Shown: positions 736 through 2,009 of the stretch, one piece after another
Layout of the letters: each line of letters begins with the position of its first letter
Position numbering within the stretch: position 1 is the stretch's first letter
NCBI RefSeq assembly: GCF_019038465.1
Contig: NZ_JAFKRH010000039.1
Coordinates: forward strand, 1 to 57,989
DNA length: 57,989 nt
Direction of reading: 5' to 3'
Source: Synechococcus sp. CCY 0621
GTDB taxonomy: Bacteria > Cyanobacteriota > Cyanobacteriia > PCC-6307 > Cyanobiaceae
The notes under the pieces: model-generated
The model's input: the letters and a program-made list of their open reading frames with translations, nothing else
What the model was told of the DNA's origin: nothing
Database searches by the model: none
Translations under genes and position numbers: made by a program

Positions 736-1242
736 CTAGAGCAATGCCGGATCGGCGCCGGCCGGCCGCTCAGACGGCCGGAGATCGGCCATCAGCTGGA
801 AATCCTCGAAGGCAAAACCCGGTCCCACGCAACAGTGCAACAGGCTCCAGCGCCCCCGGCTGCGGGCCGCCTGCCACCAGCCGGCCGGCACGACCTGCAG
901 GGTGGCCGGCTCCGGAGCCTCGGTGGCCTCACCGGTGGCGGCAGCGACGAGGGGACCGAGCACCAGCCGTTCGGCCGTGCCTCCCTGGGGCGGCAGCCGC
1001 CAGAGGTCGAGGGGATCACCGCCGGCGTGGTGCCACACCTCATCGCCCCCCGCGACCCGATGCCAACGGCTGAGCTGCCCCTCCGCCAGCAGGAAAACGA
1101 TCACCGTGAGTCCGGCGCGTTGCCGCCCGTCCTCGCTGCGTTGCACCTGGCCGGCGGAGCGGTGCAGCTCCCGGTACCAGCCCCCCTCCGGGTGGGGCTG
1201 CAGAGCGAAGCGGGCGATCAACGCCTCCGGACTGGAATCCAT
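736..1242 (-). CDS. DUF985 family cupin
   Basis: A 168-residue cupin-fold protein. The N-terminus (ALIARFALQPHPEGGWYREL) and the core RWHRVAGGDEVWHHAGGDPL, which carries the metal-binding His and Asp/Glu residues, are typical of DUF985 (COG3542). Members are small sugar-epimerase-like cupins of uncertain substrate. The ATG at 1242 is chosen because the conserved N-terminus starts there; the open frame extends further upstream only as unconserved sequence. The gene is divergent from the UmuD-like gene, and the shared gap holds a LexA-type box. Confidence 0.85.
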   Translation of the reverse strand: MDSSPEALIARFALQPHPEGGWYRELHRSAGQVQRSEDGRQRAGLTVIVFLLAEGQLSRWHRVAGGDEVWHHAGGDPLDLWRLPPQGGTAERLVLGPLVAAATGEATEAPEPATLQVVPAGWWQAARSRGRWSLLHCCVGPGFAFEDFQLMADLRPSERPAGADPALL

Positions 1243-1297: not shown

Positions 1298-1311
1298 AGA
1301 ACACCTGTACT
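1298..1311 (+). promoter_or_regulatory. LexA-type SOS box upstream of the UmuD-like gene
   Basis: The 14-mer AGAACACCTGTACT fits the cyanobacterial LexA consensus RGTACNNNDGTWCB with one mismatch (A for T in the left half). It is an inverted repeat of AGAAC and GTACT separated by four bases. It ends 11 bp before the ATG at 1323 and supports that start over the upstream ATG at 1269, which would place the box inside the coding region. The TGTACT half may double as the -10 element, giving a nearly leaderless transcript. That last point is inference. Confidence 0.6.
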
Positions 1312-1322
1312 GCCACGACCTG

Positions 1323-1799
1323 ATGCTGTCCCTCCCTCCCCAGGTGCCGCTGCCCCCACGGCAGGGAGCCGCGGCGCTGCTCTGTCGTTTGGCCACCGAA
1401 GCCGTCAGCGCCGGCTTCCCCAGCCCCGCCGACGACTACGTGGAGGCCCGCATCGATCTCAACGTGGAACTGATCCCCCGCCCGCTGTCCACCTTCTTCA
1501 TGCGCGTCAGCGGCGATGCCATGCGGGGGGACGGCATCGTCGACGGCGACCTGCTGGTGATCGACCGCAGCGTCGATCCCCGTCCCGGCATGGTGGTGGT
1601 GGCGGTGCATGCCGGCGCCTTCCTGCTGCGGCGCCTGGCCCGCCGCGGCACCGGCCTGTGGCTGGTGGCCAGCGACGGCACCAGCCCGCCCCTGGTGCTC
1701 ATCAGCGACGAAGGCAGCGGTGGTGATGGCGCAGACCTCTGGGGCGTCGTGATCCACGCCGTGCACCACCTGGCGGGCGCCCCCTCCAGGCGGCGCTGA
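1323..1799 (+). CDS. umuD: UmuD-like (S24/LexA-fold) protein lacking the catalytic dyad
   Basis: A 158-residue homologue of UmuD, the SOS accessory protein of DNA polymerase V. The conserved FPSPADDYVEARIDLN block and the Ala30-Gly31 self-cleavage site are present. The nucleophile position is altered: UmuD has SGDSM, with Ser60 catalytic in E. coli, whereas this protein reads SGDAM (Ala66). The general-base Lys97 position is Arg103 (FLLRRL instead of FTVKKL). Both catalytic residues are therefore missing and self-cleavage is not expected. No umuC follows. An upstream in-frame ATG at 1269 exists, but the LexA-type box at 1298-1311 favours 1323. The family is clear; loss of cleavage is inferred from the residues. 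Confidence 0.85.
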   Translation: MLSLPPQVPLPPRQGAAALLCRLATEAVSAGFPSPADDYVEARIDLNVELIPRPLSTFFMRVSGDAMRGDGIVDGDLLVIDRSVDPRPGMVVVAVHAGAFLLRRLARRGTGLWLVASDGTSPPLVLISDEGSGGDGADLWGVVIHAVHHLAGAPSRRR

Positions 1800-1805
1800 T
1801 CGGGC

Positions 1806-2009
1806 TCACGGATCGGCGCGGTGGGGCAGGGCGCGCGCGTCGCGGGGAAGGGCGGGAGGGGTCATCAGCAGGCCGCGCCGGCGCAGTTCACGCCGGAACT
1901 CAGCGGCCAGTCCGTCGGCCATCCAGAGCTTGCGCAGGTGGCCGAAGATCACCATGCAACGCAGGGCGATGGTGACGCAGACGAGCAGCTGCAGGCAGAG
2001 TTTCAGCAC
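1806..2009 (-). CDS. Small hypothetical protein, possibly membrane-associated
   Basis: A 67-residue frame converging on the UmuD-like gene with a 6 bp gap. The N-terminal third is hydrophobic (LKLCLQLLVCVTIALRCMVI) and the remainder is basic (LAAEFRRELRRRG), which fits a small membrane-anchored protein. I recognise no family. An overlapping frame on the other strand (1821-2048) looks less protein-like. The call rests on composition and tight packing, so it is only moderately supported. Confidence 0.45.
   Translation of the reverse strand: MLKLCLQLLVCVTIALRCMVIFGHLRKLWMADGLAAEFRRELRRRGLLMTPPALPRDARALPHRADP

Follow-up and report, generated by a model that had tools for sequence, protein, structure and literature searches.

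Cleavage of UmuD is usually treated as self-acting, and cutting in cis is hard to test apart from cutting in trans, as both halves lie in one polypeptide. Phage HumD is a naturally short UmuD', and UmuDAb of Acinetobacter is cleavable. In E. coli, an arm-shortened UmuD (UmuD 18) is reported to barely cut itself, yet, given RecA/ssDNA, to cleave UmuD S60A in trans efficiently (PMC5342242). In the published model of Pol V, one UmuD' subunit takes the UmuC tail and the other inserts its arm into UmuC; armless E. coli UmuD' is described there as dimerising but defective in mutagenesis, and is reported inactive (PMC11791011, PMC12926913). Duplication of umuD in Cyanobium gracile PCC6307 has been noted in a review of repair genes in cyanobacteria (PMC5101192).

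The window, the whole stretch of DNA analysed here, is contig C39 (57,989 bases); the assembly it belongs to has 101 contigs and totals 3.23 Mb. It carries a UmuD-family gene with a LexA-type box before it, and a second UmuD gene lies on another contig of the same genome. The slash in the motifs marks the cleavage point.

1298-1311, minus strand: LexA-type box AGTACAGGTGTTCT (plus strand AGAACACCTGTACT), an exact match to RGTACNNNDGTWCB
1323-1799, plus strand: UmuD-family pseudoprotease and putative arm donor, 158 aa (PF00717, E 1.3e-19; NF007621, 112.6 bits)
1404-1439, plus strand: codons 28-39, VSA/GFPSPADDY, comprising P3-P1 and the arm 3' of the cleavage point, with A30/G31 at 1410-1415
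1518-1520, plus strand: codon 66, Ala where E. coli UmuD has the nucleophile Ser60 (by alignment)
1629-1631, plus strand: codon 103, Arg where E. coli UmuD has the base Lys97 (by alignment)
G000:C31:62353-62027, minus strand: armless UmuD (Ser/Lys kept, arm and cleavage site missing), directly before umuC

The UmuD core is present in the window protein. PF00717 matches residues 26-127 and is the sole Pfam match, with no match to a DNA-binding domain, NF007621 accepts the protein barely (cut-off 110), and the best solved-structure match is 1umu_A (Foldseek E 1.7e-8, 41% identity). A UmuD-like fold is also supported by the AlphaFold prediction for the single chain (mean pLDDT 71.0), in which the arm is disordered (pLDDT <50). 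The translation of the open reading frame reads AVSA/GFPSPADDY (A30-G31), SGDAM (Ala66) and LLRRL (Arg103), and thus holds a cleavage site of the Ala/Cys-Gly type followed by FPSPADDY in an N-terminal arm. Alignment to solved chains places Ala66 at Ser60 and Arg103 at Lys97 of E. coli UmuD, with no gap between; the Lys97 position is Lys in 1umu_A and Ala in 8gmt_B. The same Ala/Arg pair is found in 64 genes from 63 genomes. This recurrence, like the dN/dS values given below, speaks against a sequencing error and, together with the gapless alignment, rules out a dyad at shifted positions. The preliminary description of this DNA, which had reported the core, the Ala-Gly site and the replacement of both catalytic residues, was therefore right on each of these points. 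Self-cleavage is probably lost in the window protein, because the family mechanism requires the Ser/Lys dyad. The "autoproteolytic subunit" label of NF007621 can evidently fall on a protein lacking catalytic residues.

Between the box (1298-1311) and the ATG at 1323 lie 11 bp, as had been described; the box matches exactly the Nostoc LexA box as quoted in PMC3091678. Boxes with at most one mismatch precede 62/69 stretches labelled dead (64 genes of the window type plus five UmuD' genes of two-gene loci bearing that label) and 47/49 armless genes. In single-base shuffles of the upstream stretches of the group, an exact match arises in 0.1% and a match with at most one mismatch in about 5%. LexA control of the window gene is suggested by the presence of the box and its recurrence in the group. 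The armless UmuD gene of the window genome has a LexA-type box with one mismatch, 28 bp before its ATG.

A Cupin_5 (DUF985) gene at 736-1242 (minus strand, start probably at 1242) is divergent from the dead umuD, and the box thus also lies in its upstream region; a Cupin_5-like gene is found inside the fetched flank of 21 of the 63 dead-UmuD loci. On the other side, a 67-aa open reading frame at 1806-2009 (minus strand) has no Pfam or NCBIfam match, and a similar stretch occurs near dead umuD in 34 of the 63 loci.

The window genome has three S24 matches: the window protein, a LexA on contig C10 that by eye shows AAGG, Ser and Lys, and a UmuD preceding umuC on contig C31. This umuC is the sole match to a Y-family polymerase domain in the genome. 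The statement in the preliminary description that there is no UmuC thus holds for the surroundings of the window gene but not for the genome, and the umuC and second umuD that it suggested looking for are both on C31, the second UmuD with the opposite defect. The latter reads MGVDLNEQLNL...CGDSM...TLKRL and keeps an intact dyad. From the alignments it starts at about E. coli UmuD residue 36, some 11 residues past the E. coli cleavage point, and an in-frame stop lies only 7 codons upstream of its ATG; therefore it can have neither arm nor cleavage site. It is predicted with a mean pLDDT of 89.9 (single chain), and UmuD' is the top match for both it and the window protein among solved structures. 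The genome therefore contains what a protease/substrate pair calls for: a partner with an intact dyad and no cleavage site.

To place this pair among its relatives, UmuD-like genes were read in 117 genomes, comprising 112 of the family and five others of the class (G041, G042, G046, G047 and G058). A search of the family matched 264/300 genomes at 1e-8, and the reading sample took the listed genomes with at least two matches plus a hand-picked share of those with one; second matches in some genomes (e.g. G162, G164, G261) lie outside it. Genes were classed as dead (AG-type site, Ala66, Arg103), armless (no site, Ser + Lys) or canonical. As these rules use the same residues they are circular, and the actual finding is that no mixtures turned up. 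The dead class holds 64 genes in 63 genomes, none of them followed by umuC. The armless class holds 55 genes, 51 of which are followed by umuC by script; for those of G007, G163 and G105 the umuC behind was read in other loci, and in G199 it was not seen. The canonical class holds 52 genes, 47 with umuC behind. By genome, 63 of the 117 have dead genes, 50 have canonical ones (accompanied in three by a further fragment or odd gene), and four have odd single genes.

Armless UmuD is carried by 55 of the 63 dead-gene genomes and is missing from eight. One of the 55 (G029) is scored from a 37-residue match at a contig end, a fragment that shows Ser and stops before Lys; one of the eight (G080, 62% complete, no umuC found) is scored unknown. 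Among the 117 genomes read, no armless UmuD occurs without a dead gene, and no genome combines dead and canonical UmuD. No UmuD with both an intact arm motif and the dyad was seen among those read in the 63 dead-gene genomes, where the readable UmuDs preceding umuC keep both Ser and Lys (55 genes, 54 genomes). The armless UmuDs of G022 and G033 retain an arm remnant with AAG/LPL; the UmuD' genes of these two genomes and of G144 were first sorted as canonical on G.P in the leader and were reassigned by hand. In L067/L215 (G007), the armless UmuD loses its usual C-terminal ending before umuC through a frame break, and may be damaged or misassembled. In a family genome, G084, umuC has no UmuD-like gene in the upstream stretch read (L192, L193).

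Dead and armless genes are far apart in closed genomes (825437 and 469749 in G023; 3523387 and 550691 in G020), and about 0.6-1.8 kb apart in six genomes of genus group g70. The dead gene is found in six genus groups, and two of the genus groups, g53 and g68, contain split as well as canonical genomes; therefore replacement or transfer has happened. G-F-P-S-P-A-x-D-Y is invariant in 27 aligned dead proteins, and across the full set of 64 the second P is replaced by T in one. In a scan for dead UmuD beyond this clade, at least seven dead loci (L217-L223) are among the 80 listed from 570 relatives, and all seven have record titles of Cyanobium or Synechococcus(aceae); three of these seven were not fully caught by script and were classed by eye, like other odd rows. 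Named records with the dead gene include Cyanobium sp. Aljojuca 7A6, Synechococcus sp. CS-1332, Cyanobium sp. FGCU6, Synechococcus sp. 8F6, Cyanobium usitatum Tous and two MAGs.

A third type of paralog lacks arm and cleavage site as well as dyad (SGHGL, SGNGM or similar, then LLRPL or LMRPL) and is not beside umuC.

L037, L038 and L117-L126: third-paralog loci, in G013, G031, G187, G224, G255, G266, G181, G246, G271 and G103

At least 12 genes belong to it, ten in nine dead-UmuD genomes plus L122 (G246) and L120 (G266) on re-reading, and nine of the ten scored have a LexA-type box with at most one mismatch. As G266 carries it alongside a canonical UmuD, with no dead UmuD found there, the third paralog is not confined to dead-gene genomes. 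On a core tree of 110 columns, with the two dyad columns removed, weak resolution and a warning for long branches, the dead, armless and third types together need a minimum of three changes, and each fits one origin; ten rows (fragments, misreads and odd single genes, including L120, L122 and L163) were excluded. In 12 same-genus pairs each, dN/dS is 0.12-0.32 for dead and 0-0.33 for armless genes, indicating purifying selection on both.

Residues of the dyad have also changed outside the split clade. G137 (L163) and G180 (L162) have a single UmuD before umuC with GEAM, that is Ser to Ala with Lys kept; loss of the nucleophile thus does not require a split. The single UmuD beside umuC in G074 (L181) keeps Ser and has Arg for Lys and Ser at P1, and that of G041 (L199) has GDRM with Arg, the whole dyad being lost. 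Judged by these residues, all four loci would be further losses of UmuD self-cleavage.

Seven genomes, five from the same genus as the window and two from genus group g82, have a dead gene and umuC with no UmuD' before umuC, and form four lineages. Searched with the armless protein, they yielded the dead protein, the third paralog (in G031) and weaker matches presumed to be LexA, and nothing else; the same search recovered the armless UmuD from the controls G000, G022 and G144. All seven are drafts (90-340 contigs, 77-99% complete) in which the stretch before umuC was read directly. A LexA-type box with no or one mismatch precedes umuC in each, a level reached by 0-9 of 100 shuffles. An eighth genome, G005, has umuC and no UmuD of any kind found by the searches.

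L187-L191, L208, L212 and L213: umuC with a LexA-type box and no umuD before it, in G032, G034, G005, G019, G001, G117, G031 and G167

The cleavage site has fared differently with and without the protease. All 56 dead genes from protease-bearing genomes have Ala at P1 and Val or Ile at P3, whereas five of the seven protease-less genomes (G031, G032, G034, G117, G167) have lost both residues. In three lineages both positions have changed, P3 from Val to Pro, Gly or Gln and P1 from Ala to Ser or Thr; V-A-A/G persists in the fourth (G001, G019). The tree requires four changes of protease presence and three of P1, all three in protease-less lineages, which make up 22% of tree length, so that three of three by chance has a probability of 0.223 cubed = 0.011 (0.015 for two of two when the fast G031 branch is left out). 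An independent-pairs test gives three pairs with, none against and one neutral (p 0.25), too few pairs for significance. P1 is Thr in 2/52 canonical UmuDs (G085, G089) and in L291, all dyad-bearing, and Ser in G074, which keeps half the dyad, so Ser or Thr at P1 may not stop cutting. The pattern is suggestive, not proof, that the scissile motif is maintained so that the armless partner can cut it. The protease-less dead genes are full-length open frames with the UmuD core, and GFPSP survives the loss of P1, so the arm has a further function; likewise, as seven genomes retain the dead protein with no protease, it has a role needing no cut by that partner.

We lean, with moderate confidence, towards the view that duplication with complementary loss has divided UmuD here into a protease and a cleavable arm donor, which work jointly on UmuC. 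The genes are complementary, co-occur, fit one origin each, are under purifying selection and have LexA-type boxes, and P3/P1 loss is seen only without the protease; pairing, RecA dependence and the role in UmuC we infer, and trans-cleavage of the arm donor is suggested by the comparative data. The window gene would be the arm donor, keeping the VSA/GFPSPADDY arm and the scissile bond without the ability to cut, and the unlinked armless UmuD would have Ser/Lys and nothing of its own to cut. Damage would inactivate LexA and both genes would be expressed; the two proteins may then pair as a heterodimer, in which RecA-ssDNA would activate the armless subunit to cut its partner in trans, between A30 and G31. 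GFPSPADDY, the N-terminus so created, could enter UmuC, like one UmuD' arm in the E. coli Pol V model, and would turn on error-prone DNA synthesis; before the cut the arm donor would be a brake on the complex. Since armless UmuD' is reported inactive in E. coli, armless UmuD would need an arm donor, which would explain why it was not seen alone in the genomes read. That Pol V of this clade is an obligate complex of UmuC and a UmuD heterodimer, a natural two-gene split with a dedicated protease and a dedicated arm-bearing substrate, is a tentative claim, about evenly poised; the unequal roles within the E. coli UmuD' homodimer, filled there by one protein, would then have become two genes here. 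Weighing against the split are the motif kept in G001 and G019, the GFPSP retained where P1 has changed, the non-Ala P1 residues of dyad-bearing UmuDs, the p of 0.25, the start of the armless UmuD well beyond the truncation point of UmuD 18, the arm remnants of G022 and G033, the low pLDDT of the predicted arm and the loss of Ser outside the split. The preliminary description held that the window protein should stay uncleaved. This is sound as far as self-cutting goes and is probably wrong overall, as 55/63 genomes have an armless Ser/Lys UmuD, and the dead protein keeps the cleavage motif in all 55. The restraint of translesion synthesis that it proposed is plausible before cleavage, as the resting state of the proposed complex.

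The retention of the dyad by the armless partners is where a permanent brake fits poorly. On that account the dead UmuD is never cut and pairs with an always "mature" armless UmuD, restraining Pol V or slowing the replicase, with the ratio of the two LexA-controlled genes setting activity. The loss of the dyad in all 64 genes of the type would agree with it, as would the persistence of the dead gene, with GFPSPA kept, in the seven genomes lacking a UmuD' in front of umuC. E. coli is reported to form UmuD/UmuD' heterodimers, the UmuD' of which is degraded by ClpXP (PMC4552617), and its UmuD 8 S60A is reported to disturb replicase-clamp contact and also, when the copy number is raised, UV survival (PMC5342242). 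Permanent braking nevertheless leaves unexplained why each readable armless partner has Ser + Lys, and why P3/P1 is kept in 56/56 dead genes with a partner and lost in three of the four lineages without; the reported inactivity of armless E. coli UmuD' means that the armless protein would need an arm donor (PMC11791011). We consider this reading unlikely. The same seven genomes, which have a umuC and no UmuD' found by the searches and in which the dead genes remain full-length with the UmuD core, could instead be taken to mean that the arm of the dead protein works in UmuC intact, and that the armless dyad is kept for some other substrate. The three lineages that lost P3/P1 speak against this, and the branches leading to them (0.28-1.45) are among the longer ones of the tree, as if constraint had relaxed there; an arm donor that is never cut seems quite improbable.

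A DNA-binding regulator like Acinetobacter UmuDAb, or a decaying pseudogene, would agree with the LexA-type box and the lost dyad. A regulatory role was also raised in the preliminary description, and the DNA-binding form of it finds no support, with only about 25 residues N-terminal to the S24 match and nothing else matched by Pfam, in a genome that already has a LexA (AAGG, Ser and Lys as judged by eye). Decay is opposed by the dN/dS of 0.12-0.32 and by recurrence across genomes in six genus groups. Either of these is very improbable.

If the split into protease and arm donor is real, single-gene deletions would make it possible to test trans-cleavage, activation by RecA and the differing roles of the two UmuD' arms in Pol V, and named isolates exist for this. 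A natural UmuD split is absent from the titles and opening abstracts of the literature searched, a partial coverage that makes this weak evidence of absence. The umuD duplicates of C. gracile PCC6307 are probably the same pair as here; the part of the review that deals with them makes no mention of lost catalytic residues, an armless copy or a split (PMC5101192).

Compared with E. coli UmuD, the self-cleaving S24 subunit of Pol V, the window protein has in common the fold, the cleavage-site sequence and an upstream LexA-type box; it differs in lacking the dyad, in not being beside umuC and in having a complementary second UmuD elsewhere in the genome. The armless partner resembles UmuD' and the phage HumD type, for which NCBIfam lists a model, as a ready-made short form with Ser/Lys, although it is shorter and, in every genome read, has a dead UmuD of full length alongside it. 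UmuDAb of Acinetobacter (PMC11332147, PMC4807011) is likewise a UmuD relative turned to another use, but it is a repressor needing an N-terminal domain, whereas the window protein has only a short arm. A further likeness is to the engineered pair of UmuD S60A and UmuD 18, in which one partner has the arm and no nucleophile and the other an active site and no self-cutting; the second is reported to cut the first in trans in vitro (PMC5342242). UmuD 18 is a laboratory construct that lacks only 17 residues and keeps 18 onward (PMC5342242); in the present pair, one protein lacks Ser as well as Lys and the other the entire arm.
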